Positions 24,917 through 40,859 of a stretch of 64,000 bases of DNA are shown here, one piece after another (position 1 is the stretch's first letter; every line of letters starts with the position of its first letter). The notes below the pieces were generated by a model. It was not told where the DNA came from and made no database searches. It saw only the letters and a list, made by a program, of their open reading frames with translations. Both the position numbers and the translations under genes were made by a program. The DNA is from Alloalcanivorax marinus (GTDB lineage Bacteria; Pseudomonadota; Gammaproteobacteria; Pseudomonadales; Alcanivoracaceae): positions 1 to 64,000 of the forward strand of contig NZ_JADDOL010000017.1 of assembly GCF_016906305.1 (NCBI RefSeq). The letters run 5' to 3'.

Positions 24917-25022
24917 CCAAACCCGCCGCTTGTGTTCCTAGAGCAGCGGGGATCACCGGACCCGCCGCCCGGGTCAGGGTCCGGTGCCATCGTTTTCGCT
25001 TTCCGTCGTCAAGTGGCTGTTC

Positions 25023-25898
25023 ATGAAACGACGCTCGCCGTTTTGGCTTTTGATTGTGGGTGTGGGAAGTCTGGTGTTGTCCGGTTGCGCTTCCCTGATG
25101 GAATCCGGCGCCTCGCTGCTGGGCCGTGAACCGGTGCCGGCCCGGGTGGCCGGCCTGCCGCTCGGTGACCTGGCCACGCTGGGCATCGACGACGGCGTCT
25201 GCGCGGAGCTGGCGGAGGCCCGCCGCCAGGACCGGCGGGTGAGCGGCCGGTGGCTGCGCGAGGACGCGCTGCCGGCCTGTGCCCGCCGTATCGAGGCGGC
25301 CCGCGAGGCGCGTCGCTACGACCAGGAACTGGACCGGCTGGTGGAACAGGCCTGGCAGGCCGAGCAGGCCGCCGAGCGTGAGCGGGCCCGCCAACGGGCC
25401 GAGCAGCGGCGGGTGCGCGAGGCCATGGAGGCGGCCCGCCGCGACGCCGAGGCGCGCCAGGAGGCCAACCGCAAGGAGGACAACCGGTCGCGGCTGCGCG
25501 AGCGGCTCGCCGACGCCCACATCCTCTCCATTCTCGAGAACGTGCCCGACCAGCCTTTGGCGTTTTCCCTGGGCCAGCCTTCCGAGCGCACCCTGAAGAA
25601 TTTTCTCGCCTGCCTGGAGGTCGGTTACCCCAATCAGGGTTACCAGGTGGACCGCCAGGGCGACGACCTGACGGTGACCGCCCTGCAGGCGGACATGCTG
25701 CGCGGCGACGTGGACATCCGCGCCCATTTCGTCAATGTCTGGGACACCTGGATGCTGGAGTCCCTGCGCGTGGCGGAGATGACCGCCGACACGCCCCGGG
25801 ACCGTTTCATGCTGGCGCAGAACCTGATGGCCGGGCCCTGCTACGGCATTGATGAACTGCTCTGGCGTGGTAACGACGACGGGGACCATCGCGGCTGA
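25023..25898 (+). CDS. Putative lipoprotein with coiled coil
   Basis: 291 residues. The signal peptide ends with the lipobox LSGC (Cys22), so it should be a lipoprotein. Residues about 85-165 are a highly charged Arg/Glu/Ala-rich helix, likely a coiled coil; a globular C-terminal part follows (about 170-290). No known domain is recognised. The ATG at 25023 is chosen so the lipobox falls at the right distance. The stop codon is inside a REP arm: the last residues (DHRG) are REP-encoded. It may be a spacer or scaffold lipoprotein of the periplasm. Confidence 0.75.
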   Translation: MKRRSPFWLLIVGVGSLVLSGCASLMESGASLLGREPVPARVAGLPLGDLATLGIDDGVCAELAEARRQDRRVSGRWLREDALPACARRIEAAREARRYDQELDRLVEQAWQAEQAAERERARQRAEQRRVREAMEAARRDAEARQEANRKEDNRSRLRERLADAHILSILENVPDQPLAFSLGQPSERTLKNFLACLEVGYPNQGYQVDRQGDDLTVTALQADMLRGDVDIRAHFVNVWDTWMLESLRVAEMTADTPRDRFMLAQNLMAGPCYGIDELLWRGNDDGDHRG

Positions 25899-25953: not shown

Positions 25954-26931
25954 TCACCCGTTCAGGAAGTCCCCGACCACCCGATAGCTCTCCGCGCAGG
26001 CCTCCGGCACCAGGTCCTCCAGATTCAACCAGGCATGGATCATGTCCGGGAACGGCTGATGCCGGGCCGGTACCCCGGCGGCGCGGAGCCGCTCCACGTA
26101 GGCCACGCCCTCGTCGCGCAGCGGGCAGAAGCCGGCGGTGAGCACCAGGGTCGCCGGCAGCCGCTCGCTGATCGGCCCGTGCAGGGGCGAGGCGTTCCGG
26201 CGCCGTACCGGGTCCGGCGCGGCACCGTCCTGGAAATAGTGGTCGAAATACCAGTGGATGCGCGAGGTCTCCAGCAGATAGCCGCGTCCGTTTTCAGCCA
26301 CCGAAGGGTGATCCAGGGTGTAGTCCAGGCTGGGATAGATCAGCGCCTGTTTGTGGACACGCAGGTCCGGATCGTCCTGGGCCAGGGCACTGACGGTGGC
26401 GGCCAGGGCGCCGCCGCCGGAGTCGCCCACCAGGTTCAGGGTCCGCGTGACCCGGCGCCCGTGGCGGTCCAGCACCGGCCACAGGTGGCGGGCCACCGCC
26501 AGGCAATCCTCCAGGCCCAGCGGATAGGGGCACTCCGGCGCCAGCCGGTATTCCACCGACACCACCAGATGGCCACTGGTCTTCGCCAGCCGCCGGACGA
26601 TGGGGTCGTAGACGCTGACGCCGCCGGCCATGTGACCGCCGCCGTGCAGAAACAGGGTCACCGGTTTTTCCCGGTCCGGCGCCGGATCGTAAAGCCGCAC
26701 CGGCACCGGGTAGGCGCCGGTGGGGATCATCGTGTCCCGTACCCAGGGCAGGTCGGGCCCCCGCGCCACCAGGGTGGCGGTCATCGACGCCATGCTCTCG
26801 CGCACCGTCACCGGGGTGGCCTCCACGCCGCGGGCGGCCTGGTCGGCGAGCAGCCGGTTGAGCCGTTCCAGCCAGTCGGCCAGGGCCGGGTGCGGCTGGT
26901 CGGCTTTCAGCGCGCCGGGGGGCGTCAACAT
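25954..26931 (-). CDS. Alpha/beta hydrolase, hormone-sensitive-lipase family esterase
   Basis: 325 residues. The HSL-family oxyanion motif HGGG is at 96-99 and the nucleophile motif GDSGGG at 169-174 (Ser171); Asp and His of the triad are expected in CPLRDEGVAY and FPDMIHAWLNL near the C-terminus. No signal peptide. Such enzymes hydrolyse short to medium-chain esters in the cytoplasm. It is the last gene of a catabolic operon, overlapping the hotdog gene by seven bases, so it may release an acid from an ester that the CoA ligase then activates. Confidence 0.88.
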   Translation of the reverse strand: MLTPPGALKADQPHPALADWLERLNRLLADQAARGVEATPVTVRESMASMTATLVARGPDLPWVRDTMIPTGAYPVPVRLYDPAPDREKPVTLFLHGGGHMAGGVSVYDPIVRRLAKTSGHLVVSVEYRLAPECPYPLGLEDCLAVARHLWPVLDRHGRRVTRTLNLVGDSGGGALAATVSALAQDDPDLRVHKQALIYPSLDYTLDHPSVAENGRGYLLETSRIHWYFDHYFQDGAAPDPVRRRNASPLHGPISERLPATLVLTAGFCPLRDEGVAYVERLRAAGVPARHQPFPDMIHAWLNLEDLVPEACAESYRVVGDFLNG

Positions 26932-27299
26932 TGAAACAGCACCAGGGCCTCGCCGTCGCAAAGCAGGCGGCCGTCCTCGCCGAGACAGCGGGTTTCCAGA
27001 TTCACCAGCGCCTTGTCCTGGCGCAGGCGGGTCACCGCCACGCTGGCGGTCAGCGCTTCGCCGGGGCGGCCGTGGCCGTGGAAGCGCATGCTCTGCTTCA
27101 GATAATTGGTGCCGTGGCCGGGCAGTTCCTCCCCCAGCAGGTAGGAGAACAGCGCGGCGATCAGCGGTTCCGGCACCGTTTCCCAGTCGCCGTCGAATTC
27201 CGCCAGCCGGCACCATTCGGCGATATCGTCGTCCAGGTAGCGGCGGGTCACCTCGGCGCGGTCGCCGGGCTTGAGGGCGTTGAAGCGGGGCAGTGTCAT
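26925..27299 (-). CDS. MaoC-like hotdog protein lacking catalytic motif
   Basis: 124 residues. The sequence PEPLIAALFSYLLGEELPG, then GTNYLKQSMRFHGHGRPGEA, matches the second half of a MaoC/PhaJ hotdog, but the hydratase motif GDxNPxH is absent; the equivalent region reads EFDGDWETV. It starts exactly on the stop of the adjacent active-type MaoC gene (ATGA). Paired short MaoC proteins, one catalytic and one not, form heteromeric enoyl-CoA hydratases in some steroid pathways; a similar complex is inferred here. Confidence 0.75.
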   Translation of the reverse strand: MTLPRFNALKPGDRAEVTRRYLDDDIAEWCRLAEFDGDWETVPEPLIAALFSYLLGEELPGHGTNYLKQSMRFHGHGRPGEALTASVAVTRLRQDKALVNLETRCLGEDGRLLCDGEALVLFQC

Positions 27300-27739
27300 C
27301 GGCGGGCCTCCTGGTTCGCGTCCCGGTTCAGTTTGAGGCGGCAGCGGCCCTCCAGGCAGGCCTGACCGGATGCGTTTTCCACCCGGGTGATCAGTTCCAG
27401 CCGGTCGTCCGCCGGCGGCGCGACGATGTCCAGGTGCACGGTGAGCGGTTCATCGGCGAACGCCGGGTTCGGGAACATCAGGTCCTGGCTCTCCAGCTCG
27501 GCGCCCGGGTAGTTGTGCGCGATCAGGCCGCGCACCGCGGTGAACAGCAGCATGCCGTGGGACACGGTGGCGCCGAAGCGGGTGCCGGCGGCGAAATCCG
27601 GGTCCACGTGGATCGGGTTGTGGTCGCCGCTGAGCGCGGCGAAGCGGTCGAAGTGCGCCTGTTCCAGCACCTGCTCGTATTCGATGCCGCCAATCTCCTG
27701 TTCGTGCGCTTGGCCGTGGTGGCCGTTGTCATCGCGCAT
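27296..27739 (-). CDS. MaoC family (R)-specific enoyl-CoA hydratase-like protein
   Basis: 147 residues. The hydratase-2 motif is complete: FAALSGDHNPIHVDPDFA, with Asp39 and His44 as the expected catalytic pair, then GATVSHGMLLFTAVRGLI. Family members add water to 2-enoyl-CoA with R stereochemistry. The ATG at 27739 lies 11 bases inside the end of the CoA ligase gene and has AGGAG at seven bases. It probably pairs with the noncatalytic hotdog protein encoded next. Confidence 0.85.
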   Translation of the reverse strand: MRDDNGHHGQAHEQEIGGIEYEQVLEQAHFDRFAALSGDHNPIHVDPDFAAGTRFGATVSHGMLLFTAVRGLIAHNYPGAELESQDLMFPNPAFADEPLTVHLDIVAPPADDRLELITRVENASGQACLEGRCRLKLNRDANQEARR

Positions 27740-29246
27740 CACGCAACTCCTGTTTGGTGACTTTGCCCAGGGCATTGCGGGGCAGGGCGTCCATCCGCTG
27801 AAAGACCTTGGGCACTTTATAGCCCGCCAGGCGCTCGCGGCAAAACGCGCGCAGCGTGTCCTCGCCGGGGTCCTCGGCGCCGTCGCGCAGCCCGTAGCAG
27901 GCCTTGCCCACCTCGCCCCATTTTTCATCCGGTATGCCGATCACCGCCACTTCCGCCAGGGCCGGGTGCTGTTCGAGCACCTTTTCCACCTCGGCGGGGT
28001 AGACGTTCTCGCCACCGGAAATGTACATGTCCTTCCAGCGGTCGACGATGTAGTAGCAGCCGTCCTCATCGCAACGGGCCACGTCGCCACTGTGCAGCCA
28101 GCCGTCGGCGCGGATCGCCTCGGCGGTGGCGTCCGGCCGGTTCCAGTAGCCGGGGGTGATATTGGGGCCGCGAATCAGCAGCTCGCCGGCCTCGCCCCGG
28201 GGCACGTCGTGGCCGTCGCGGTCGACGATGCGTACCTCGGTGAGCAGTTGCGGGCGGCCCACGGAGCCGATCTTGTCGATCACCCGTTCTTCGTCCAGCA
28301 GAAACACGGTGGGCCCGGTTTCGGTCATGCCCATGCCGGTGCGCACACAAATGCCCTGGTCCACGTAGCGCTGCGCCACCGGCAGCGACAGCGGCGCGCC
28401 GCCACAGCCCCAGGAACGCACGCCCTTAAGGCGCTCGCCGCTGAAATCCGGATGCTCCAGCAGGGCCTGGTAGACCGCCGGCACGCCGAAGAAGATCGTG
28501 GCTCTCTGTTCCAATACCCGCAGGGCCTGGTCCGGGTCGAAGGCGCGGGCCACCAGCACGCAGCCGCCGGCCAGAAACACCGCCGAGGAATACAGGTTGA
28601 TGCCGGCGGTATGGAACAGGGGCAGCACGTTGAGCAGCACGTCGCGGCCGGTGAGGTCCACCGCCAGGCCGATGTTCAGGTAGTTGGCCATCATCATGCG
28701 GAAGGTCTGGATCACGCCCTTGGGCCGGCCGGTGGTGCCCGAGGTATAGAGCAGGTACCAGGGCGTGTCCGGGTCCTTGTCCGGGTGGGCGTTCAGATCC
28801 GGCTGTACCGCCGCCAGATCCCGATGGTAGTCGTGCTGGCCGTCGGCGGCCCCGTCCAGGGCCACCAGGGTCAGTGCCGGGTGCTGGTCCGCCAGGGTGG
28901 CGGCGGCCTCGGCGAACTCGCCGCCGAAGATCAGCGCCCCGGGCGCGCAGTCCTCCACCAGCACGGTCAGTTCCGGCACCGCCAGCCGCCAGTTCAGCGG
29001 CACCAGGATCAGGCCGGCCTTGGCGCAGCCGAACAGCATGGCGAAGAATTCCGCGCGGCTGTGGCCCAGGAAGGCGAGCCGGTCGCCTTCCTGGAGGCCC
29101 CATTGTTCCCGGGCGGCGGCGGCCAGCCGCGCGGCCCGCTCGTTGAAGCGCGCATAATCGTAGCGTTCGCCGCTTTGCAGATCTTCCAGCGCCGGGCGGT
29201 CCGGCGTCACCCGCGCCCGGTGGGCAAGCAGGTCGAACATCTCCAT
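27729..29246 (-). CDS. Acyl-CoA synthetase (class I adenylate-forming)
   Basis: 505 residues. The AMP-binding P-loop YTSGTTGRPKGV is near 167-178, GMGMTETGP near 305, and the hinge YIVDRWKDMYISGGENVYPAEVE near 400; the C-terminal lysine is in LPRNALGKVTKQEL. It activates a carboxylic acid with ATP and CoA in the cytoplasm. Length and motifs suit medium or long-chain, or aryl/cycloalkyl acids; the exact acid cannot be told. It precedes the two MaoC genes in the operon. Confidence 0.92.
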   Translation of the reverse strand: MEMFDLLAHRARVTPDRPALEDLQSGERYDYARFNERAARLAAAAREQWGLQEGDRLAFLGHSRAEFFAMLFGCAKAGLILVPLNWRLAVPELTVLVEDCAPGALIFGGEFAEAAATLADQHPALTLVALDGAADGQHDYHRDLAAVQPDLNAHPDKDPDTPWYLLYTSGTTGRPKGVIQTFRMMMANYLNIGLAVDLTGRDVLLNVLPLFHTAGINLYSSAVFLAGGCVLVARAFDPDQALRVLEQRATIFFGVPAVYQALLEHPDFSGERLKGVRSWGCGGAPLSLPVAQRYVDQGICVRTGMGMTETGPTVFLLDEERVIDKIGSVGRPQLLTEVRIVDRDGHDVPRGEAGELLIRGPNITPGYWNRPDATAEAIRADGWLHSGDVARCDEDGCYYIVDRWKDMYISGGENVYPAEVEKVLEQHPALAEVAVIGIPDEKWGEVGKACYGLRDGAEDPGEDTLRAFCRERLAGYKVPKVFQRMDALPRNALGKVTKQELRDAR

Positions 29247-29340: not shown

Positions 29341-31812
29341 TCAATCGTTGATTTCCGACCAGTCGAACCGGGTGATGCGGTTGCTGATCAACGAGAACAC
29401 GTAGACGTCACCGCCGCCCACGGCCACCTGCTCGGTGTCGAACAGACCGCCGGGGCGGGTGCCCAGATCACGGTCCAGCCAGTGGCCCTGGTAGGCCGGG
29501 CTGATCACGCCGGCGCCGTCGGGGCTGTAGTCGTCCGGGTTGGCCCAGGCCCGCGCCACCATGTTGAAGCCGTCGGCCACCACCAGGGCGTCCTGGGCGG
29601 CGTCGTAGGCGAGACCAGCGGGCAGGAACAGGCGCTGCGGGTCCAGGTCGTCCGGGTGGTCGTAGGTGCCGCCACCCAGGCCGACCTGGCCGATCAGGGC
29701 GCCGTTGGCCGGGTTCAGCGCCTGGATGCGCTGGTTGCGGCGGTCGGTGACATAGACCCGGTCGTCCAGGGCGAGCACGCTGCCGATCTGGTCGAAGGTG
29801 CCCGGCGCGCCCTGTTCGAAGAAGTCCGGGCCCAGGCTCCAGTTCTCGCCCAGGTCGTTGCCCTTGGAACTGTCCACGCCGCCGGCGTACCAGTTGCCGT
29901 CCAGGGTGCCGCTGCCGCTGTCGTAGTCGAAACGCCACACGTAATTGTCGAAGCTGGTGATGTAGACCGCGTGCTCGTCGCCGCCCTGGGTGACGTTCAC
30001 CGACACCGGGTAGTTGGTGTTGCTGGTGGACAGGCCGATTTCCGGCACCGGCAGGCCGCCGGTGCGGTAGCTCAGGTTGAACAGCTCTTCCAGGTTGCCG
30101 TCGGCGTCGTAGATGCGCAGGCTGGCGTCGCCGGTGTAGGGCCAGGGCAGGGTGGCGTCGGCGCCCACCAGCACCGCCACGCCTTCGCCGATGTTGCTGT
30201 CGGTGAAGGTGGCGATGCCGGTGACCCCGTAGCTGATGTTGGTGCCCGGGAAGCGGCCCTGATAGTTGCCGCTGCTGTCGTACATGTTGATGCGGGTGTT
30301 GGGCGTGTCGCTCACCAGCAGGCGGTTCTTGTTGCCCAGCCAGGCCATGCCGCTGGCGGAGTGCAGCTGGCCGGCCAGGGTGCGCGGGTGGCCCCAGAAT
30401 TCATTGTTGGACACGGTGCCGACGCCGGCGGACACGGAGCAGCGCAGCAGGGTGGTGCCGCTGGAGTTGGTCCAGCATTTCTTGATGCGGTTGTTGCCGG
30501 AGTCGCTGACCAGATGCACCCGGGCGTTGCTGTAGTAGTAGCCCCAGGAATAGATGTTTTCCCGATAGAAAGTACCGTCGGCGCGGATCACCGGCACCAG
30601 ATCGTTGGGCAGCTGGAAGGCTTCGTCCTCGGTGCCGGCGCTGGTGGGCGCGCGCATTTCCACCTGATGGATGCCCAGGCGGCCATAGATCCAGGCGGCG
30701 GAGGCGTCGCTGCTTTTGCTGGTGCGGTAGCGCACCGGGTTGGCGTCGCTGGTGCTGGCCAGGTTGCTGAAGCGCAGGATGCGGCCGCTGTAGGTGTCCG
30801 CCACGTAGAGGTTGCCGTCCAGGTCGGTGCGCAGCCCGCGCGGGCGCTTCAGGTGGTCGGCGCTGCCGCCGTCGCGGAAGCGACCGATCATGTCGTCCAG
30901 GGTGAGCTGGCCGGTGGCGGTGTTGACGCGGAAAATCTTGATGCGGTTATTGCCGTTGTCGGCCACGTACAGGTAGGTGGCGCCGTTGTCCGGCGAGGTG
31001 TAGTAGGTCATCCCCTGGGGGATGCGGAAGCCGTCGCGCTTGGCCGGTTCGCCGGCGTAGTCGTCGTAGTAGGTGGAGTCGGTGCCGTAGTCCTTGTCCA
31101 CGCCACGGATGCGCGGGCCGGCGCCCACGTAGCGGCCGCTGCCGTCCTGGTGGCCCAGGGTCTGGATCAGCGTCACCTGGTAGCCGTTGTCCGGGTCGAT
31201 GCCGAACGCCTTGACCCGATGGTTGAATTCATCGGACACATAGATAAAGCCCTGCGGCGTGATGGTCATGTTGCGCGGCAGGTACAGGTCCTCGCCGCCG
31301 CCGTGGCCGGGCTGGCCGATGGAGGTGACGTATTCGAAGCCGCCGGCGCTGCCGGTCACGGTGCGGAAAAAATGAATCTGCTGGCGGCCCACGTCGTTGA
31401 CATAGAGGCCGGCCAGACGATCGTCGTCCGCCTCGCTTTTCGACAGGAAAGCGATGCCCAGGGGCGCGCGGATTTGCGGTACCGAGGAGGCCGGGCTGTC
31501 GGCGGCCAGGGTGGTGTCGGCGTCGTCCAGGCGGCCCACCAGGGCGCCGTTCAGATTCAGCACCTTGATTTCATGGTTGCCCATGTCCGCCACATAGACC
31601 CGGGCGCCGCTGGCGCCGCCGCTCAGGGAGTCGCGGTCATAGGTGACGGTGGTGGGGGTATTGAACTGGTAGCGCTGCTGCACCGGCTCGCCGGTGAGCT
31701 CCGTGGAGCGGTCCTCGTCGGCGAAGGTATCGAACGCGCCCGCGGTGAGGGGCAGCGCGGTGAAGGGCAGGGCGCCGAGTAGCAGCGCGCCGGCCAGGGC
31801 TTTTGTTTTCAT
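29341..31812 (-). CDS. Secreted NHL-repeat beta-propeller protein
   Basis: 823 residues. A cleavable signal peptide covers about 1-26. NHL-type repeats with the pattern YVAD-x-GN-x-RI occur at least eight times, for example VYVADMGNHEIKVL, FIYVSDEFNHRVKAF, YLYVADNGNNRIKIF, NLYVADTYSGRILRF, VHLVSDSGNNRIK, LLVSDTPNTRINMY and RVYVTDRRNQRIQAL, spread over the whole length. That fits one or two beta-propellers in the periplasm or outside. Such proteins bind ligands or act as lactonases; no catalytic motif is certain. Its position between a CoA ligase and an enoyl-CoA hydratase is unusual. Confidence 0.85.
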   Translation of the reverse strand: MKTKALAGALLLGALPFTALPLTAGAFDTFADEDRSTELTGEPVQQRYQFNTPTTVTYDRDSLSGGASGARVYVADMGNHEIKVLNLNGALVGRLDDADTTLAADSPASSVPQIRAPLGIAFLSKSEADDDRLAGLYVNDVGRQQIHFFRTVTGSAGGFEYVTSIGQPGHGGGEDLYLPRNMTITPQGFIYVSDEFNHRVKAFGIDPDNGYQVTLIQTLGHQDGSGRYVGAGPRIRGVDKDYGTDSTYYDDYAGEPAKRDGFRIPQGMTYYTSPDNGATYLYVADNGNNRIKIFRVNTATGQLTLDDMIGRFRDGGSADHLKRPRGLRTDLDGNLYVADTYSGRILRFSNLASTSDANPVRYRTSKSSDASAAWIYGRLGIHQVEMRAPTSAGTEDEAFQLPNDLVPVIRADGTFYRENIYSWGYYYSNARVHLVSDSGNNRIKKCWTNSSGTTLLRCSVSAGVGTVSNNEFWGHPRTLAGQLHSASGMAWLGNKNRLLVSDTPNTRINMYDSSGNYQGRFPGTNISYGVTGIATFTDSNIGEGVAVLVGADATLPWPYTGDASLRIYDADGNLEELFNLSYRTGGLPVPEIGLSTSNTNYPVSVNVTQGGDEHAVYITSFDNYVWRFDYDSGSGTLDGNWYAGGVDSSKGNDLGENWSLGPDFFEQGAPGTFDQIGSVLALDDRVYVTDRRNQRIQALNPANGALIGQVGLGGGTYDHPDDLDPQRLFLPAGLAYDAAQDALVVADGFNMVARAWANPDDYSPDGAGVISPAYQGHWLDRDLGTRPGGLFDTEQVAVGGGDVYVFSLISNRITRFDWSEIND

Positions 31813-31902: not shown

Positions 31903-32652
31903 CTATTTTTTCAGAAAGGCGGCCATGCCCCGGTCCGCCTCGTCGCTTTCGATCTGTTCCAGAAAATGCCGGTATTCGGCCTCCAGGCCGGCGGCCACGG
32001 TGGCCCGGTCGGGGCGCGTCAGGGCCAGGGTGCGGCCCACGCTGCCGGGTTTGGCGTCGCGGATTGTCTCCGCCACCGCCCGCGCCGTGGCGCCGGTGTC
32101 CTCGGCGCGGTACTGCACCAGACCCAGCCGGTGGGCCTCGTCCGCGTCCAGACGGCGGTTGGTGAGCTGAATGTCCAGCGCCCGGGCCCGGCCGATGCGC
32201 TCCGGCATCAGCGCGGTCCAGCCGCCGTCCGGGCTGAAGCCCACCACCGTGTACCAGGGCGCGAAGCTGGCCCGGTCGCCGGCCACGGCGATGTCGCAGG
32301 CCAGCACCAGGCCCAGGGAGCCGCCGGTGACCAGGCCGTGCACCGCCACCACCGTGGGCACCGGCAGATCGAGCAGATCCAGCAGCGTGGCGTTGAGGGT
32401 GCCGACCACCTTCTCCGCGTAGGCGCGGCGCTGGTCCCGGGGCGTTTCATGGAAGCCGGCCACGTCGCCGCCGCTGGAAAAGGAACGGCCTTCGGCGTCC
32501 AGAATCAGCACCGCCGCGTCGCTGTCGCGGACCCGCGCCAACTGTTCACGGATCGCGTCCAGCAGCTCCGGCACCAGGGCGTTGTGGCGGTGCGGCCGGT
32601 TCAGGGTGAGCCGGGCGATGCGTTCCTCGATGCGCAGGGTGGCGGCGCTCAT
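31903..32652 (-). CDS. Enoyl-CoA hydratase/isomerase family protein
   Basis: 249 residues of the crotonase fold. The oxyanion segment SFSSGGDVAGF (about 57-67) and GLVTGGSLGLVLACDIAVAG are typical. The two glutamates of true hydratases are not present (GGSLGL and FAPWYTVVGFSPDGGWT); the Asp in SPDGG is where PaaG-type isomerases keep their catalytic Asp. So enoyl-CoA isomerase or a ring/side-chain lyase is more likely than hydration. The ATG overlaps the stop of the TetR gene (ATGA). Confidence 0.87.
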   Translation of the reverse strand: MSAATLRIEERIARLTLNRPHRHNALVPELLDAIREQLARVRDSDAAVLILDAEGRSFSSGGDVAGFHETPRDQRRAYAEKVVGTLNATLLDLLDLPVPTVVAVHGLVTGGSLGLVLACDIAVAGDRASFAPWYTVVGFSPDGGWTALMPERIGRARALDIQLTNRRLDADEAHRLGLVQYRAEDTGATARAVAETIRDAKPGSVGRTLALTRPDRATVAAGLEAEYRHFLEQIESDEADRGMAAFLKK

Positions 32653-33317
32653 GGGTTTTTCTCCGGGCCTTCCAGGGTCAGGCCATTGCGGAACAGGTCG
32701 GAGATGGTGGCGACGATCTCGTCGAACGACACGTCCCGATCCCACAGCGCGTAGCGCAGACCGAGAAAGTTGGACATGCCCATCAGTGCCCACACCCGCA
32801 CCTCGTTATTGCCGGCGCGGATTTCGCCCTTGCGGGTGGCGTCGGCCAGCATGCGCAGATAGCCGCGCCCGAAGGCTTCGTAGTATTCGCGGTAGATCGA
32901 CTCGTCCACGAACTGGGCCTCCTGCAGCACCCGGTACAGGGAGGGGTGCTCGAACAGATACTGCAGGAAGGCGCGCAGACCTTTTTCCTCCGCCTGCAGC
33001 CGGTCGCCGGCATCGACGATCTCGGCGGCCAGATGGGCGCGCACCTGATGGCCCATGTCGCGCACCAGCTCGCGGAGAATTTCCTCCTTGCCGGCGAAGT
33101 AGGTGTAGAAGGTGCCCTGGGCGACGCCGGCGGCGCGGGTGATGTCGCTGATGCCGGCGCGGTGGTAGCCGAGGGTGCCGAAGGTGTCCTCCGCGGCCTT
33201 CAGGATGCGCGCCCGGGTGCGGGCGCCGCGGGCGGTCTTGGGTGCCCCGGGGCCGGCCTGGGCGGCGTCGTCGGCGGGGTCCGGAGTGGCGGTTTTGAGC
33301 GAGGCGGTACGGGTCAT
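32649..33317 (-). CDS. TetR family transcriptional repressor
   Basis: 222 residues from ATG 33317; a TTG at 33359 would add 14 residues but lies inside the operator palindrome. The TetR HTH is at about 35-80 (ARILKAAEDTFGTLGYHRAG, ISDITRAAGVAQGTFYTYF). The ligand-binding C-terminal domain has YFAGKEEILRELVRDMG and a helical bundle. It probably represses its own operon and the divergent transporter operon, and is released by an acyl-CoA or the imported compound. The effector is not identified. Confidence 0.9.
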   Translation of the reverse strand: MTRTASLKTATPDPADDAAQAGPGAPKTARGARTRARILKAAEDTFGTLGYHRAGISDITRAAGVAQGTFYTYFAGKEEILRELVRDMGHQVRAHLAAEIVDAGDRLQAEEKGLRAFLQYLFEHPSLYRVLQEAQFVDESIYREYYEAFGRGYLRMLADATRKGEIRAGNNEVRVWALMGMSNFLGLRYALWDRDVSFDEIVATISDLFRNGLTLEGPEKNP

Positions 33318-33341
33318 GGGAGCCGTCTTTTGTTCTTTGAA

Positions 33342-33361
33342 AGTTGAATCGGTATTCAACT
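33342..33361 (-). promoter_or_regulatory. Operator palindrome for the TetR regulator
   Basis: AGTTGAATCGGTATTCAACT has perfect 8-bp arms around a four-base centre. It lies 24 bases before the TetR ATG, where a repressor would block transcription of its own operon. Arm length and spacing fit TetR-family dimers. Confidence 0.65.
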
Positions 33362-33495
33362 AAATTAGGTTTGGCGGGTCATTCTGTCAACCATGAAGAC
33401 CTTACCGGGACGCCGGAAGAGCGCCCGGAAAGACGTCGGGAAACCCGTTTTGTACTGTTTTTTCAGGGGTTGGCGCCTTTCCAGGGTGGCGCGGA

Positions 33496-33536: not shown

Positions 33537-33565
33537 TTGCGGAAAGGTGAATCAGTTGTCATATT
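33537..33565 (+). promoter_or_regulatory. Possible sigma-70 promoter of the transporter operon
   Basis: TTGCGG and CATATT separated by 17 bases, about 94 bases before the ATG of the substrate-binding protein gene. Matches to the consensus are three of six and four of six. Confidence 0.3.
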
Positions 33566-33658: not shown

Positions 33659-34882
33659 ATGAAGCGTCTGATTACCGCCACGGCCTTCACGCTCACCGCC
33701 CTGGCCGCCGCGCCCCTGGCCCAGGCCGCCGACTCCATCCGCATCGCCCACGTCACCGGCTTCACCGGTCCGCTGTCCGCCTACGCGGAGCAGCTCAGCG
33801 TGGGTCTGGAAATGGGCTTCGAGTACGCCACCGACGGCAGCATGGAGATCGAAGGCCGCAAGATCGAGATCATCGACAAGGACACCCAGCTGGACCCGGC
33901 CCGGGCCCGCTCCCTGGTGGAGGAAGCCTACGCCGAGGACGACGCCCAGATCGTGGTGGGCCCGGTTTCCTCCGGCGTGGCCCTGGCCACCCTGCCGATC
34001 GCCGAGCAGTACGAGCGCATCATCATGCCCGAGGGCGTGGCCGACGCCATCACCGGCGCGGACTGGAACCGCTATGTGTTCCGGGTCGGCCGCAACTCCT
34101 CCCAGGACGCGGTCTCCAACGCGGTGGCCCTGGGTGAGCCCGGCGTCTGCGTGGCCACCATCGCCCAGGACTATGCCTTCGGTCGCGACGGCGTGGCCGC
34201 CTACAAGGAAGCGATGGAAGGTCAGGGCGGTAAAGTGGTGCACGAGGAATACCTGCCCACCGACGCCACCGACTTCACCGCCGCCGCCCAGCGCCTGTTC
34301 AACGCGCTCAAGGACCGGGACGGTTGCGAGCAGGGCAAATACATCTTCGCCATCTGGGCCGGCAGCGCCAACCCGCTGAGCCGCATCCAGGACCTGCAGC
34401 CGGAGCGTTTCGGCATCAAGCTGGCCACCGGCGGCAACATTCTGCCGGCGCTGGTGAGCTACTCCGAATTCCCGGGCATGGAAGGCGCCGGTTTCTACTA
34501 CTTCGAGTCGCCCAAGAACAAGATCAACGACTGGTTCGTGAAGGAGCACTTCAAGCGCTTCGACGCGGCCCCGGACTTCTTCACCGCCCAGGGTTTCTCC
34601 CAGGCCATGGCGATCACCGCGGCGATCCGCAAGAGCAAGGGTTCCACCGACACCGAGGACCTGATCAAGGCGTTCGAAGGGCTGGTGTTCGAGACTCCGA
34701 AAGGCAAGATGATCCTCCGCGACGAGGACCATCAGGCGCTGCAGGAGATGTACCACTTCCGCATCAAGGCCGAGGAGCGGGATGACTGGTTCGCCGACCG
34801 CACCGTCACCGCCGGCGTGCCGGAACTGGTGCGCACCATCGCCATCGATCAGATGAACATCCCGATCCGCAACAAGCGCTGA
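33659..34882 (+). CDS. Liv-type ABC transporter substrate-binding protein
   Basis: 407 residues. The signal peptide is about 1-23 (AAAPLAQA then ADS). The mature part is a type I periplasmic-binding fold: IRIAHVTGFTGPLSAYAEQL, VVGPVSSGVALATLPIAEQY and FRVGRNSSQDAV are in the positions expected for the Leu/Ile/Val-binding family. Many family members bind amides, aromatic or aliphatic acids rather than amino acids. The ATG follows AAGAAGGAG. First gene of the import operon. Confidence 0.9.
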   Translation: MKRLITATAFTLTALAAAPLAQAADSIRIAHVTGFTGPLSAYAEQLSVGLEMGFEYATDGSMEIEGRKIEIIDKDTQLDPARARSLVEEAYAEDDAQIVVGPVSSGVALATLPIAEQYERIIMPEGVADAITGADWNRYVFRVGRNSSQDAVSNAVALGEPGVCVATIAQDYAFGRDGVAAYKEAMEGQGGKVVHEEYLPTDATDFTAAAQRLFNALKDRDGCEQGKYIFAIWAGSANPLSRIQDLQPERFGIKLATGGNILPALVSYSEFPGMEGAGFYYFESPKNKINDWFVKEHFKRFDAAPDFFTAQGFSQAMAITAAIRKSKGSTDTEDLIKAFEGLVFETPKGKMILRDEDHQALQEMYHFRIKAEERDDWFADRTVTAGVPELVRTIAIDQMNIPIRNKR

Positions 34883-34954: not shown

Positions 34955-35755
34955 ATGGCCTCCTTGCAACCCGAAACCGCCTCCCGTCCGGTGCTGGAAA
35001 CCCGCGACCTGACCATCAATTTCGGCGGTCACGTGGCGGTCAATCAAGTGTCCTGCGCGTTTCACGCCGGCACCCTGACCTCCATCGTCGGGCCCAACGG
35101 CGCCGGCAAGACCACCTGGTTCAATCTGATTTCCGGGCAGCTGCCCGCGTCCGCCGGCAGCGTGCGGCTGTTCGACGAGGACATTACCCGACTGGGCGCC
35201 GCCGCCCGCGCCGACAAGGGCCTGGGCCGCGCTTTCCAGCTTACCAATCTGTTTCCCAATCTGACCGCGCTGGAGAACGTGCGCCTGGCGGTGGCGTCGC
35301 GCCATCGCATCGGTCATGTGTTCTGGCAGATGGCCAGCCGCCGCCGCGATCTCACCGACCGCGCCGCCGCCTATCTGGAACAGGTCAACCTGGGCCGTCG
35401 CGCCGACGATCTGGTGGCCAATCTGCCCCACGGCGACCAGCGCAAACTGGAAGTGGCGCTGATGCTGGCGCTGGAGCCGGAGGTGTTCATGTTCGATGAA
35501 CCCACCGCCGGCATGAGCGTGGACGAAGTGCCGGTGATCCTGGATCTGATCGCCGACATCAAGAACAAGCAGAACAAGGTGATTCTGCTGGTGGAGCACA
35601 AGATGGACGTGGTGCGCTCGCTGTCCGACCGCATCGTGGTGCTGCACAACGGCGAACTGGTGGCCGACGGCGAACCCGCCGAGGTGATCGCCTCGCCCAT
35701 CGTCCAGGAAGCCTACCTGGGCGCCACCGCCGACGACCCCGCCGAGGAAGCCTGA
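34955..35755 (+). CDS. ABC transporter ATP-binding protein (LivG-like)
   Basis: 266 residues. Walker A GPNGAGKTTW lies near 46-55, Walker B VFMFDEPTAGM near 182-192, and the signature region reads LPHGDQRKLEVALML instead of the usual LSxGQ, a variation seen in LivG proteins. The ARADKGLGRAFQLTNLFPNL block is typical for branched-chain transporters. It pairs with the LivF-like protein encoded one base after its stop. Cytoplasmic energy subunit. Confidence 0.92.
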   Translation: MASLQPETASRPVLETRDLTINFGGHVAVNQVSCAFHAGTLTSIVGPNGAGKTTWFNLISGQLPASAGSVRLFDEDITRLGAAARADKGLGRAFQLTNLFPNLTALENVRLAVASRHRIGHVFWQMASRRRDLTDRAAAYLEQVNLGRRADDLVANLPHGDQRKLEVALMLALEPEVFMFDEPTAGMSVDEVPVILDLIADIKNKQNKVILLVEHKMDVVRSLSDRIVVLHNGELVADGEPAEVIASPIVQEAYLGATADDPAEEA

Positions 35756-35756
35756 T

Positions 35757-36482
35757 ATGAGCGACCCGATTCTTTCCCTCACCGGCGTGCGCGCGGACAT
35801 CGACCAGTACCACATTCTGCACGGCGTGGACCTGCGGGTGCCGAAGGGCGAGCTGACCGTGCTGCTGGGCCGCAACGGCGCCGGCAAGAGCACCACGCTG
35901 CGCACCATCATGGGCCTGACCACCGTGACCGGCGGTCAGGTGCGTTTTCGCGGCGAGGACATCACCGGCCAGCCGACGCCGCGCATCGCCCGCCAGGGCA
36001 TCGCCTTCGTGCCCGAGAACATGGGCATCTTCAGCCTGCTGACGGTGCGCGAAAACATGGTGCTGGCGGCGGTCAGCGGGCCCATGGACGAACAGCGGCT
36101 GAACTGGATTTTTGAACTGTTCCCGCCCCTGAAAAAATTCTGGAACCGGCCGGCGGGCAATCTTTCCGGCGGCCAGAAGCAGATGCTGGCCATCGCCCGG
36201 GCGGTGATCGAGCCCCGCGAACTGCTGCTGGTGGACGAGCCCACCAAGGGGCTGGCACCGGCCATCATCAACGACCTGGCGGACGCCTTCGAGCAGCTCA
36301 AGCAACAGCAGGTCAGCATTCTGCTGGTGGAACAGAACTTCAACTTTTCCCGGCGTCTGGGCCAGTCCGTGGCGGTGATGAACGACGGCGGCGTGGTGTA
36401 CGCCGGCCAGATGGCCGAGCTGGCCGACGACGAGGACCTGCAACAGGAGTTGCTGGGGCTCGGTCTGGGCGCGCATCAATAA
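35757..36482 (+). CDS. ABC transporter ATP-binding protein (LivF-like)
   Basis: 241 residues. Walker A LGRNGAGKSTTLRTIMG (38-54), signature NLSGGQKQMLAIARAV (about 137-152) and Walker B LLLVDEPTKGLAP are all intact. LTVRENM and GIAFVPENMGIF are usual LivF blocks. It is the second ATPase of the heterodimer. Confidence 0.92.
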   Translation: MSDPILSLTGVRADIDQYHILHGVDLRVPKGELTVLLGRNGAGKSTTLRTIMGLTTVTGGQVRFRGEDITGQPTPRIARQGIAFVPENMGIFSLLTVRENMVLAAVSGPMDEQRLNWIFELFPPLKKFWNRPAGNLSGGQKQMLAIARAVIEPRELLLVDEPTKGLAPAIINDLADAFEQLKQQQVSILLVEQNFNFSRRLGQSVAVMNDGGVVYAGQMAELADDEDLQQELLGLGLGAHQ

Positions 36483-36512: not shown

Positions 36513-37571
36513 ATGTCGGCGCACGACGAAATTCTCGAACCGCGGCCCCAGGGCGTCCTCGCCCGGTTCCGCGCGTTCCGCGAGAAACGGCCGCACCTGT
36601 TTCTGCTGGTGCTGATGATGCTGGTGGCGTTTTTCATGATGGACCCGCGCACCTGGGTGGTGCTGACCATCAGCGGCCTGGCCATGGGCGCCATGGTGTT
36701 TCTGATGGCCTCGGGCATGACCCTGACCTTTGGTCTGATGAACGTGCTCAATCTGGCCCACGGCGCCTTTATTTCCCTGGGTGCCTTCGCCGGCGCCACG
36801 GTGCTGGTGCACTGGCTCAACGCCAGCGCCGGCGAGTCGTCGCTGCTCGCCAACCTGGCGGCGGTGGTGCCGGCGCTGGGCTTCGCCCTGGCGGTGGCCG
36901 GGCTGGTCGGCCTGCTGTTCGAGCGGCTGGTGATCCGGCCGGTGTACGGCGATCACCTCAAGCAGATCCTGGTCACCGTGGGCGGTTCCATCATTCTGAT
37001 GGAAATGATCCATGTGATCTGGGGGCCCAATGAGATTCCGGTGCCGCGCCCGGACGCGCTCACCGGCGCCTTTCTGCTACCCGAGTCCTGGCCGGTGATC
37101 GGCGGCGTGGCGCTGGAAAAATACCGGCTGATCGCGGTGATCCTGGGGCTGGCGGTGTACGGCATGATGACCTGGGTGATCGAACACACGCGCACCGGCA
37201 TTCTGATCCGCGCCGGGGTCGAGGACCAGGAAATGGTGGAGGTGCACGGCTACCGCATCCGCCTGCTGTTCCTGGGCGTGTTCGTGGCCGGCTCGGCGCT
37301 GGCCGGGCTGGGCGGCGCCATGTGGGCCATGTACCGGGAGATCATTACCGCGCACATGGGCGACGAACTGATGATCTCGGTGATCGTGGTGATCATTCTC
37401 GGCGGGCTGGGTTCCATCAAGGGCTGCTTCTACGGCGCCGTGCTGGTGGGCCTGATCAATCTCTATGTGGGCTACCTGGAACCGCGTCTGGCGGCGGTGG
37501 CCACCGTGGGCCTGATGGTGGGCGTGCTGATGTGGCGTCCCCAGGGCCTGATTCCGGTCATCAAGGTTTGA
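36513..37571 (+). CDS. ABC transporter permease (LivH-like)
   Basis: 352 residues, longer than E. coli LivH (308) because of an N-terminal cytoplasmic extension of about 30 residues. Eight or so membrane helices; the LivH signature SGMTLTFGLMNVLNLAHGAF is at about 68-88, and GLGGAMWAMYREI with VIVVIILGGLGSIKG near 270-300. AAGGAG precedes the ATG at 36513. Confidence 0.92.
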   Translation: MSAHDEILEPRPQGVLARFRAFREKRPHLFLLVLMMLVAFFMMDPRTWVVLTISGLAMGAMVFLMASGMTLTFGLMNVLNLAHGAFISLGAFAGATVLVHWLNASAGESSLLANLAAVVPALGFALAVAGLVGLLFERLVIRPVYGDHLKQILVTVGGSIILMEMIHVIWGPNEIPVPRPDALTGAFLLPESWPVIGGVALEKYRLIAVILGLAVYGMMTWVIEHTRTGILIRAGVEDQEMVEVHGYRIRLLFLGVFVAGSALAGLGGAMWAMYREIITAHMGDELMISVIVVIILGGLGSIKGCFYGAVLVGLINLYVGYLEPRLAAVATVGLMVGVLMWRPQGLIPVIKV

Positions 37572-37584
37572 GGGGCGCCCGGCT

Positions 37585-38784
37585 ATGATGCAACGACTGC
37601 TTTCCGGCGATTACCCGCGCAGCCGCGCGCTCACCGTGCTGCTGCTGATCATCGGCGTGAGCCTGGCGCTGGGGCCGTTCCTGTTCCCCGGCGTGCGCGC
37701 CTTCTCCATGCTCGGCATGATCTGCGTGTTCATTATCGTGGTGGCGTCCTACGATCTGATGCTGGGTTATACCCACATCGTGTCGTTCGCGCACACCATG
37801 TTCTTCGGCATCGGCGCCTATGGGGTGGCCATGGCCACCGACGCCTTCGGCAGCGGCTACGGCGCGCTGCTGATCGGCATTGGCGGCGCCTTGCTGCTGT
37901 CCATTCTGCTGTCGCTGTTGCTGGGCCTGCTGTCGCTGCGGGTCAAGGCGATCTTCTTCGCCCTGGTGACCCTGGCGGTGGCGTTCGCCTTTCTCAGCCT
38001 GGTGACCCAGCTGTACAACCTGACCGGCGGCGAGGACGGCCTGGCCATGCGCGTGCCCCGGGAACTGGGGCCGGCGTTCCGGCCGTTCGACGAGCCCTGG
38101 GTGGGCTTCGATGTGGTGGGCTTTTTCACCGGCCTGTTCAGCGACCCGGCCGGTGCGTTCCAGAATGCGCTGTTCGATGTGCGCGTCAGCGGCAAGCACC
38201 TGATGTACTACGTGGCGTTCGTCAGCGCGGTGCTGGTGTTCCTGTTCCTGCTGCGCATGGTCAACTCGCCGTTCGGCCGGGTGCTGCAGGCGATCCGCGA
38301 GAACGAGTTCCGCGCCCAGGCCCTGGGCTACCGCACCGTGTTCTACCGCACCGCGGTGGTGATCGTGTCGGCGCTGCTGGCGACCCTGGCCGGGGTGCTG
38401 TTCGCGCTGATCAACCGTTACGTGAACCCGGAGAACACCCTCAACTTCGAGCTGATGGTGTTCATCCTGCTGATGTGCGTGATCGGTGGCATGGGCACCC
38501 TGTACGGCGCCGTGGTCGGCACCGCCGTGTTCCTGCTGGCGCAGAACTATCTGCAGGACCTGCTCAAGCTGCTGGCCGGCGGCGCCGAGCCGGGCAGCCT
38601 GCTGGAACATCTGGTGGGCCCGGACCGCTGGTTGCTGTGGTTCGGCCTGCTGTTCGTGCTCAGTGTGTATTTCTTCCCCACCGGCATCGTCGGCCAGCTG
38701 CGGCTGTGGGCGGCGCGTCGTCGCCAGCGCCGCGCCGGCGCCGGCCGGGTGGCGGACCAAGGAGAACAGCATCATGCGTCTTGA
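37585..38784 (+). CDS. ABC transporter permease (LivM-like)
   Basis: 399 residues with about ten membrane helices. [20 protein letters not shown] is the LivM version of the permease signature, and the EAA-type loop [17 protein letters not shown] is at about 232-248. It begins 13 bases after the LivH-like gene and overlaps the SDR gene by 11 bases, so the dehydrogenase is translationally coupled to import. Confidence 0.92.
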
Positions 38785-39553
38785 GGACCGTGTAGCGATC
38801 ATTACCGGCGCCGGCCGTGGTATCGGCCGGGGAATCGCCGAACAGTACGCCCGGGAAGGGGCGCGGGTGGCGGTGGCGGATCTGGAAGCCGCCACCGCCG
38901 AGGACGCGGCGGCCGCGATTCGCGACGCCGGCGGCGAGGCCATCGCCGTGACCATGGACGTCACCGACGAGAACGCGGTGGACAGCGGCGTACAACGGGT
39001 GATCGACACCTGGGGCCGTCTCGACATCGCCATTGCCAACGCCGGGGTACAGCACATTGAAGCCCTCGACAAGCTGTCCCTGGCCGACTGGCGCAAGGTC
39101 ACCGCCGTGCATCTGGACGGCGCCTTCCTGCTGACGCGGGCGGCGCTGCGCCATATGTACCAGGGCGGTGGCGGCACCGTGCTGTACATGGGCTCGGTGC
39201 ATTCCCTGGAGGCGTCGCCGTTGAAGTCGCCCTACGTGGCCGCCAAGCACGCCCTGCTGGGGCTGTGCCGCTCGGTGGCCAAGGAGGGCGCCGCCCACGG
39301 CGTGCGCAGCCACATTATCTGTCCGGGGTTCGTGCGCACCCCGCTGGTGGAGAAGCAGATTCCGGAGCAGGCCCGGGAGCTGGGGATTTCCGAGGACGAG
39401 GTGGTGCGCAACGTGATGCTCAAGAACACCGTGGACGGGGAGTTCACCACCGTGGAGGACATTGCCCGGCTGGCCACCGATCTGGCGGCGTTTCCGTCGG
39501 CGGCGCTCACCGGCCAGTCCTTCGTGGTCAGCCACGGCTGGCACATGGGGTAG
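38774..39553 (+). CDS. SDR family dehydrogenase, 3-hydroxybutyrate dehydrogenase-like
   Basis: 259 residues. The NAD-binding TGAGRGIG is at 11-18 and NAGVQH near 89; the catalytic Ser in GSVHS and [10 protein letters not shown] with the YxxxK motif follow. The C-terminal block [13 protein letters not shown], then [17 protein letters not shown], is characteristic of D-3-hydroxybutyrate dehydrogenases (BdhA). It could oxidise the (R)-3-hydroxyacyl product formed by the MaoC hydratase across the divergent promoter, before or after CoA removal; this link is inference. AAGGAG lies before the ATG. Confidence 0.88.
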
Positions 39554-39670
39554 GGCGGTCGGAAAAAGTCCGGGGGCCGGTTCCATCCCTGGAACCTGGA
39601 GATCGATCAGGCCTTCGGAGGGGTCGCAGAAAAGGAAAACCTGAAGGGGCCCGCCGGACCACTGAATGTA

Positions 39671-39686
39671 CTGTACAAAAGGACAG
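39671..39686 (+). promoter_or_regulatory. LexA-box-like sequence
   Basis: CTGTACAAAAGGACAG has the CTGT-N8-ACAG core of SOS boxes and is preceded by TA. It lies in a gene-free stretch 66 bases before a strong hairpin terminator. One such core per window is expected by chance, so confidence is low. Confidence 0.25.
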
Positions 39687-39736
39687 CAGTCAACGAAGCG
39701 AGCGAATTGGGCGAAGAAAGACGGGAGAGCCGTGCG

Positions 39737-39764
39737 CGCCGGGGGAGATCCCCGGCGTCTTTTT
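39737..39764 (+). terminator. Rho-independent terminator (plus strand)
   Basis: CGCCGGGG pairs perfectly with CCCCGGCG around a five-base loop (GAGAT), followed by TCTTTTTTG. It is 184 bases after the SDR stop and close to the convergent minE end. Confidence 0.8.
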
Positions 39765-39789
39765 TGCTTCACGGCCGACCGCGATGGGG

Positions 39790-40044
39790 TTATTCCTGCT
39801 CGGGCAGGGTGATGTTCAGTTCCAGGATCTCGCAGCCGGACTCCCGGTCCAGCTGGATGTTGACCGCGTCCTGGTCCACCGGCACGTACTTGCGCACCAC
39901 CATCAGCAGTTCTTCCTGCAGCTGCGGCAGATAGTCCGGGCCGCCGCGGGTGGCCCGTTCCCGGGCCACGATGATCTGCAGGCGTTCCTTGGCCACCGAG
40001 GCCGACTTTTCCTTCTTGGGCAGCAGATAGCTGAAAATGCTCAT
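39790..40044 (-). CDS. minE: Cell division topological specificity factor MinE
   Basis: 84 residues. The N-terminal MinD-binding part has [20 protein letters not shown]; the dimerisation domain has [17 protein letters not shown]. MinE displaces MinD from the membrane and drives the pole-to-pole oscillation that keeps the division septum at midcell. It starts two bases after the minD stop. Confidence 0.96.
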
Positions 40045-40046
40045 CG

Positions 40047-40859
40047 TTACCCTCCGAACAGACGGCCGAAGAGGCCTTTCTTGGCGCTGGTCAGGAACCG
40101 GTGCTCGCGTTCCTCGCCCAGGAAGCGGGCCACCGCGTCCTCGTAGGCCTGGCCGGCGTCGGAATCCGCGTCCAGGATCACCGGGGTGCCGCCGTTGCTG
40201 GCGTTCAGCACCGCCTGGGATTCCGGGATCACGCCCAGCAGATCGATGGCGAGAATCTCCTTCACGTCCTCGACGGACAGCATCTGCCCGGTTTCCACGC
40301 GCTGCGGGGAGTAGCGGGTCAGCAGCAGCCGGGCGGGGATGTCGCCTTCGCCCTGTTCCGCCTTGCGGGTCTTGCTGGAGAGGATGCCCAGAATACGGTC
40401 GGAATCGCGCACGCTGGACACTTCCGGGTTGGTCACCACCACCGCCTCGTCGGCGAAATAGGCGGCGGTGAGCGCGCCCTTCTCGATGCCCGCCGGGCTG
40501 TCGCAGATGATGTATTCCATGCCCATGTCCTTGAGGCCGTTGAGCACCTGCTCCACGCCTTCCAGGGTCAGGGCGTCCTTGTCGCGGGTCTGGGAGGCGG
40601 GAAGGATGAACAGGTCCTCCACGCGCTTGTCCTTGATCAGGCCCTGCTTGAGGTTGGCGTCGCCGCTGATCACATTGACCAGGTCGTACACCACGCGGCG
40701 TTCGCAGCCCATGATCAGGTCCAGGTTGCGCAGGCCCACGTCAAAATCGATCACCGTGGTTTTGTGGCCGCGCAGCGCCAGGCCGGTTGCCAGAGCCGCG
40801 CTGGTGGTGGTTTTGCCCACACCCCCCTTGCCGGATGTTACGACCACGATTTTTGTCAC
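40047..40859 (-). CDS. minD: Septum site-determining ATPase MinD
   Basis: 270 residues. The deviant Walker [14 protein letters not shown] is at 10-22; Walker B-type [19 protein letters not shown] follows; the C-terminus [11 protein letters not shown] is the amphipathic membrane-targeting helix. MinD dimerises on the membrane with ATP and recruits MinC and MinE. GGAGACGA lies before the ATG. Confidence 0.97.

Follow-up and report, generated by a model that had tools for sequence, protein, structure and literature searches.

A secreted NHL beta-propeller protein in a putative polyhydroxybutyrate utilisation regulon of Alloalcanivorax marinus

We analysed a 64,000-nucleotide stretch of the Alloalcanivorax marinus genome (assembly GCF_016906305.1, contig NZ_JADDOL010000017.1, positions 1 to 64,000; hereafter the window), with the focus on a minus-strand gene for a secreted NHL-repeat protein that lies among genes for acyl-coenzyme A (acyl-CoA) enzymes. 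Its open reading frame (ORF) runs from an ATG at 31,812 to a stop at 29,341 and has a third-position GC content of 0.92, a strong coding signal. The 823-residue product scored 83.1 bits against the Pfam NHL profile (cut-off 20), and the orthologues of two distant carriers scored 94.0 and 88.5 bits. The protein starts with a hydrophobic leader, MKTKALAGALLLGALPFTALPLTAGA followed by FDTF, which ends in AGA before the F and has no lipobox cysteine; such a leader was seen in all 17 aligned rows (the window protein and 16 orthologues), the leaders of this protein and of the depolymerases treated below being assigned by eye. The computed isoelectric point (pI) is 4.7, and the 391 invariant columns of the alignment include 10 Trp, 24 Tyr and 19 Phe. 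A preliminary description made from the letters alone had given the coordinates, the length and the neighbours correctly, and had proposed an exported protein with at least eight NHL repeats. The conserved leader, the Pfam score, about 12 blades counted in a structural model and an orthologue listed with a signal peptide in a published exoproteome (both described below) agree with this. The description is thereby confirmed: the ORF, set within an operon of CoA catabolism, encodes an NHL propeller with a Sec-type leader for export.

On the minus strand the genes are ordered TetR regulator, crotonase, NHL protein, CoA ligase, MaoC hydratase and hormone-sensitive-lipase (HSL)-family esterase (Table 1); the crotonase upstream and the AMP-binding ligase downstream of the NHL gene, as described before, were both recovered with Pfam. 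The opposite strand carries a Liv-type binding protein, two ATPases and two permeases, and then a short-chain dehydrogenase/reductase (SDR) that passed three NCBIfam models for 3-hydroxybutyrate dehydrogenase (scores and cut-offs 367.7/340, 340.1/258 and 310.9/307). Because the operon faces a Liv-type importer followed by this dehydrogenase, its substrate is most likely 3-hydroxybutyrate (3HB) derived from polyhydroxybutyrate (PHB).

Table 1. Coordinates of the NHL protein gene, its parts and the surrounding genes and predicted sites in the window.
Feature	Position	Strand	Basis or remark
Secreted NHL protein, double beta-propeller, 823 aa	29341..31812	-	ORF, Pfam, conservation, model
Predicted Sec signal peptide, residues 1-26, AGA/F cleavage	31735..31812	-	read by eye, no lipobox
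N-terminal propeller, residues ~50-470	30403..31665	-	probably six blades: five modelled well, sixth poorly
C-terminal six-bladed NHL propeller, residues ~476-821	29350..30387	-	model; Z 29.8 to 6xg7
HSL-family esterase, no evident signal peptide	25954..26931	-	candidate intracellular 3HB-oligomer esterase
MaoC-type hydratase	27296..27739	-	closest relatives of solved structure: (R)-specific enoyl-CoA hydratases
AMP-binding acyl-CoA ligase	27729..29246	-	Pfam; nearest solved 8weu/8wev
Crotonase-family enoyl-CoA hydratase/isomerase	31903..32652	-	ECH_1 123 bits; start overlaps TetR gene end
TetR-family regulator	32649..33317	-	TetR_N 53.9 bits
Predicted TetR operator 1	33341..33362	.	TGAATCGGTATTCA core
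Predicted TetR operator 2, upstream of importer genes	33544..33565	.	TGAATCAGTTGTCA core
Periplasmic binding protein, Liv-type ABC importer	33659..34882	+	ALC24_2998 orthologue by gene order
ABC ATPase, LivG-like	34955..35755	+	profile matches
ABC ATPase, LivF-like	35757..36482	+	profile matches
ABC permease, LivH-like	36513..37571	+	profile matches
ABC permease, LivM-like	37585..38784	+	profile matches
3-hydroxybutyrate dehydrogenase (SDR)	38774..39553	+	three NCBIfam models over cut-off

The link to PHB is supported at the protein level by the exoproteome of Alcanivorax sp. 24 (PMC7187450). In Table 2 of that paper, ALC24_2995, named 'NHL repeat protein', makes up 0.28% of the exoproteome on succinate, 15.79% on PHB, 18.09% on the hydroxyvalerate copolymer PHBV, 2.19% on polyethylene succinate (PES) and 0.41% on bis(2-hydroxyethyl) terephthalate (BHET). 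On PHB and PHBV none of the other 15 proteins in that table reaches as high a share; its entry gives a signal peptide and a predicted outer-membrane location. The corresponding values for ALC24_2998, a 'Periplasmic binding protein', are 0.32, 7.33, 8.74, 1.42 and 0.78%, and the authors of the paper suggest for it a possible role in the import of 3HB and 3-hydroxyvalerate; in the sections covered here, the role of ALC24_2995 is not interpreted and the cluster is not described (PMC7187450). Genes for the NHL protein, the crotonase, TetR and the binding protein stand in a row on a contig of sp. 24 (L024; L and G are our labels for loci and genomes), which fits tags 2995 to 2998, and the genome sharing its coordinates (G008) has a single match to the NHL protein at E<=0.001. 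From tag spacing, gene order and this uniqueness, we identify ALC24_2995 and ALC24_2998 as the probable orthologues of the NHL and binding proteins of the window. Their log2 changes over four conditions run together (r 0.999, from four points), with r 0.86 for the NHL protein against the depolymerase. Both are induced by PHB and PHBV in the same exoproteome as the depolymerase of short-chain-length polyhydroxyalkanoates (scl-PHA) ALC24_4107, whereas the depolymerase gene lies away from the NHL cluster and responds to PES as well, staying at 10.4% (PMC7187450). The earlier proposal of a CoA-catabolic operon holds. Generic beta-oxidation, or an otherwise unspecified hydrophobic acid as substrate, was dropped in view of the exoproteome table and the dehydrogenase scores; these, with the depolymerases, make a PHB/3HB utilisation regulon most likely. 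A literature search with subscription journals mostly outside its coverage, judged from titles, the openings of abstracts and the counts of terms, found no further paper on the propeller or the cluster, and the papers matched through the PDB codes of the structures closest to the binding protein were all unrelated.

We then compared the distribution of the propeller with that of PHA depolymerases. Full-length NHL orthologues were found in all 13 genus genomes, our own included, at 81-100% identity, and in none of 23 other genomes of the family and 21 others of the order; weak NHL-repeat matches (G025, G051 and an additional one in G006) were not counted. In a sample of the class, the propeller was detected at E<=1e-30 in 1 of 369 genomes, which is our own. 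A scan of 84,980 genomes with six exact eight-residue peptides, which diverged orthologues may escape, gave the best 80 of 86 relatives on 76 loci. Sixteen of these loci (L017-L032) carry a full-length protein at 70-98% identity: 11 from Alcanivorax/Alloalcanivorax, two from Microbulbifer and one each from Verticiella, Oceanospirillum and an Ectothiorhodospiraceae genome, WFHF3C12. The other 60 show 22-45% identity over NHL-repeat stretches only, and among the ORFs listed for them the local matches were repeated and none spanned the whole protein; they include NHL-repeat proteins on contigs titled as metagenome-assembled genomes of Thorarchaeota (L070, 23%) and Lokiarchaeota (L071, 31%), a repeat-level similarity. 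All 17 full-length proteins share about 70% identity or more, and deep forks of their tree were weakly supported, so no direction of transfer was drawn.

The order crotonase, NHL gene, ligase is kept in 14 of the 16 other loci, although 11 of these 14 come from one genus; orthologues lying mostly outside such clusters, which would have counted against the preliminary description, were therefore not what we found. The dehydrogenase follows the importer in 11/11 Alcanivorax/Alloalcanivorax loci. The 22-kb Verticiella locus contained no match to it, and the two Microbulbifer loci merely have SDR matches of 31-34% identity elsewhere in the locus.

Our genome encodes a PHA depolymerase (L100; NF050058, 181.3 bits against a cut-off of 150) with a leader, 78% identical to a 635-residue one of sp. 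24 which, given its length and the adjoining regulator, we regard as ALC24_4107. A depolymerase homologue (PF10503, 51-59 bits) was present in 13/13 genus genomes, and in each of them one depolymerase is our own or 72-95% identical to it; a second depolymerase piece in G009 (L103) did not match our own. The 23 other genomes of the family gave four weak PF10503 matches (19.6-21.2 bits), three of which pass the cut-off of 23 after neighbouring pieces are added (23.2-24.6), and the 21 other genomes of the order gave 65 bits in G040, 50 in G050, 33 in G038 and 20-24 in G044, G045 and G047. All five carriers outside the genus exceed the NF050058 cut-off, and one, Oceanospirillum, also that of the type 2 depolymerase model NF050059. 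With NF050058 depolymerases in 33 of the 369 class genomes, five out of five would arise by chance at about 6e-6 when kinship and genome size are ignored. The binding protein of the importer is itself tied to depolymerases: it occurs (E<=1e-80) in five of the 369 class genomes, the four besides our own all pass NF050058 (chance about 5e-5), and G040, the only one of 44 relatives outside the genus to have it, scores 205 bits.

A 14-base dyad is common to the intergenic regions between TetR and the importer. To score it, a position weight matrix (PWM) was built from 12 sites in whole TetR/importer intergenic regions, importer-side sites included, with none from WFHF3C12, G040 or G076; over 393,453 background positions with GC of at least 58%, it gave no hit at 11.4 bits or more, one at 10.4 or more and three at 9 or more. 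In WFHF3C12, where the parts are scattered over four contigs, the best hits per stretch were 11.4 bits upstream of the NHL gene, 15.4 upstream of the crotonase-ligase pair, 10.4 upstream of the importer and 22.1 upstream of the depolymerase, the NHL and importer sites being weak and judged by that background alone. The exact consensus matched twice in our genome, in both cases between TetR and the importer, twice each in sp. 24 and Verticiella, always within the same intergenic region, three times in WFHF3C12 and twice in M. halophilus, where the extra match inside an ORF is probably due to chance; M. sediminum had none, its TetR-side site being one letter off. The reversed pattern gave 0, 0, 1, 1, 1 and 0 matches over the six genomes. 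As the consensus was drawn after the sites had been seen, only the PWM test is independent. One exact match in WFHF3C12 (L168, 7563-7576) lies 147 bp upstream of a gene for a major facilitator superfamily (MFS) transporter (L168, 7710-9101), which, judged from this site, could be a further member of the regulon and perhaps a 3HB permease. Among the five genomes outside the genus with the binding protein and no propeller, the site at TetR scored 22.7 bits in G040 (L180) and 21.6 bits in G076 (L177), and the best sites at L176 (G134) and L178 (G169) scored 5.0 and 1.0; L179 (G166, GC 42%, outside the composition of the background) had sites of 15.4 and 12.4 bits, neither upstream of the binding protein.

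To see what kind of propeller the protein may form, we turned to structure prediction. A first AlphaFold model, from an alignment of the 17 close orthologues, was too poor for use (mean pLDDT 54.6), and a second one of the mature protein, from 10 orthologues and 14 distant NHL sequences, reached 68.9. Strand groups counted manually in the second model give about 12 blades, one of them poorly modelled, and we read the protein as two probable six-bladed propellers. The N-terminal half aligns with homologues having six repeats, and mature residues 450-795 match 6xg7 with a Z score of 29.8 over 259 residues at 2.7 A. The C-terminal half thus resembles Thin (6xg7), TRIM2/3 (29.6) and the sensor domain of PknD (24.1); Thin and TRIM2/3 are eukaryotic RNA or protein binders and PknD is a kinase sensor, unlike the secreted double propeller here. 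The same half also resembles an enzyme, peptidyl-alpha-hydroxyglycine alpha-amidating lyase (PAL, 3fvz), at Z 25.2 over 260 residues and 3.0 A. The top Foldseek rows (agrin/LRP4/MuSK, LRP6 and others) were dropped, as their query TM-scores were near 0.2.

At six channel positions that we picked by hand in each propeller, the N-terminal one has T54, L118, R180, Q266, R325 and N403, all invariant, and the C-terminal one has S/T, T, V, I/V, A/V and T/A, so that none of the twelve is His, Asp or Glu. PAL and the SMP-30 enzymes carry His or Asn/Asp at channel positions that may correspond to these; the NHL protein has no His at the twelve examined, a possible difference from PAL. An N-terminal channel lined by T, L, R, Q, R and N would suit a carboxylate better than a metal. 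Three His residues of the C-terminal half, H484, H614 and H719, are invariant in the alignment. The SGL profile of the SMP-30/gluconolactonase family scored 37.5 bits (cut-off 26.3), but its best stretch is partial, covering residues 258-350 (93 of 823; profile 129-212 of 246) within the NHL repeats. The Lactonase profile, also over its cut-off, has its best stretch at residues 279-345, again within the repeats, and no whole SGL or Lactonase domain was matched by Pfam. Weak NCBIfam matches to the ScyD/ScyE/ScyF proteins of scytonemin clusters (56.4 bits against 350 and 26.9 against 80) concern a different pathway; these too are exported NHL proteins within a metabolic cluster.

Taken together, we lean moderately to the view that the NHL protein is an exported accessory of a regulon for PHB (scl-PHA) utilisation and binds 3-hydroxyalkanoate oligomers, monomers or polymer ends, its most likely task being the capture, beyond the inner membrane, of PHB or of 3-hydroxyalkanoate oligomers. 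In this model, the secreted depolymerase would cut PHB, and the double propeller, at very high copy outside the inner membrane, would bind the products or polymer ends and keep them at the cell until the Liv-type importer takes them in. The cytoplasmic HSL esterase, CoA ligase, MaoC, crotonase and dehydrogenase may then, presumably in some such order, lead them to central metabolism, and a TetR repressor acting on TGAMWAMYGADTCA-type operators, presumably in response to an effector, would switch the gene set on. The earlier suggestion that the protein acts on the substrate prior to its import, on the outer side of the inner membrane, is plausible. A more specific version, in which an arginine-lined channel holds the oligomers by their carboxylate ends and passes them to the importer, is that of a 'SusD-like' step of PHB use recruited into an older TetR-controlled regulon. 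It would make the secreted double NHL propeller a capture protein of a new type, acting outside the cytoplasm on the products of polyester breakdown; this version is tentative and, on present evidence, rather doubtful.

Binding is favoured over catalysis because no whole SGL or Lactonase domain was found, because of the channel residues, and because in sp. 24 the propeller exceeds the depolymerase on PHB and PHBV and drops on PES (PMC7187450). An enzyme that finishes the work of the depolymerase outside the cell or in the periplasm, as a hydrolase of 3HB oligomers or dimers or as a hydroxyacid lactonase, with the monomers then imported, would also be exported and belong to the induced set, and the SGL and Lactonase scores, the PAL-like fold and the three invariant His residues could be read in its favour. 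We nevertheless regard it as less likely: those profile stretches fall within NHL repeats, the hand-picked channel positions lack His, Asp and Glu, non-catalytic NHL propellers fit the fold better (Z up to 29.8), and the operon already contains an esterase. For the first two of these reasons, the term 'lactonase-like' in the preliminary description finds no clear support.

The drop on PES also suggests that the protein deals with 3-hydroxyalkanoate products rather than with polyester surfaces in general. It bears on another explanation, an adhesin at the surface or in the matrix by which cells hold on to PHB particles and which has no part in product uptake, to which the predicted outer-membrane location, the rise of adhesion proteins on polyesters (PMC7187450), the low pI and the many invariant aromatics would be congenial. 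On PES, however, the propeller falls in step with the binding protein while the depolymerase stays high; its gene keeps company with importer and catabolic genes, and no anchor or lipobox was seen in the protein, which makes an adhesin improbable. That the NHL gene merely travels along with the operon, functionally unconnected with the genes around it, seems very improbable indeed. In G040 and G076 the crotonase is directly followed by the ligase, and two carriers have the NHL gene elsewhere, as such a view would have it, but the strong induction on PHB in step with the binding protein (PMC7187450), the operator-like site of its own where the gene stands alone (WFHF3C12), the identity among all 17 proteins and the depolymerase homologue in 5/5 outside carriers all speak for a functional tie.

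Several observations weigh against the capture role. The role is read from genes, a model and a published exoproteome, and the model is only moderately confident, with mature residues 339-453 poor. The NHL gene stands alone in 2 of the 16 carriers; Oceanospirillum lacks the ligase (E<=1e-70) and the binding protein (E<=1e-20), and both Microbulbifer also lack the binding protein at E<=1e-20. No site of at least 10 bits was found at the depolymerases of our genome, sp. 24, both Microbulbifer, Oceanospirillum and Verticiella, nor an operator-like site of that strength in the Oceanospirillum NHL locus, and no leader is obvious in the depolymerase homologues of Verticiella. Moreover, 32 of the 33 class genomes with a depolymerase have no propeller at E<=1e-30, indicating that PHB use does not generally depend on it.

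The propeller has the appearance of a separable addition to an older gene set, because parts of the cluster exist without it between crotonase and ligase: the cluster of G040, operator and importer included, is otherwise the same, in G076 a single row holds TetR, crotonase, ligase, MaoC and importer with no esterase in the stretch read, and WFHF3C12 has the crotonase-ligase pair with the propeller elsewhere. Loss of the propeller in such lineages is the alternative. In the propeller-free clusters, MaoC is followed by a protein of 137-142 residues without a Pfam match (L177 8432-8860 and L180 5037-5450).

Other features of the window were also recorded. Beside the esterase, 24984-25898 (+) encodes a 304-residue protein whose leader resembles that of a lipoprotein (LSGC); neither Pfam nor NCBIfam gave a match for it, and 8 of the 11 Alcanivorax/Alloalcanivorax loci contain a match of 57-93% identity. 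The ORF at 39265-40146 was rejected as a gene; it belongs to no family and overlaps the dehydrogenase in another frame. An 820-residue FadE-like acyl-CoA dehydrogenase with a bacterial-type ACDH_C domain (41874-44336, -) is separated from the cluster by a minC gene and a gene for a MinD/ParA-type ATPase, and a row of ORFs at 14801-19317 (-) includes those for a DUF4350 protein, an RDD-family protein and a 528-residue protein without a Pfam match.

Extracellular PHB depolymerases are well studied; to our knowledge, it is much less clear how the water-soluble products of PHB are held and imported. In marine plastic-degrading bacteria, the locus joins a candidate importer and a candidate capture protein to a regulator, its predicted operators and the enzymes that act downstream, and so makes a set that can be tested as a whole. 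It also offers a candidate role for a protein that makes up 16-18% of a published exoproteome (PMC7187450).

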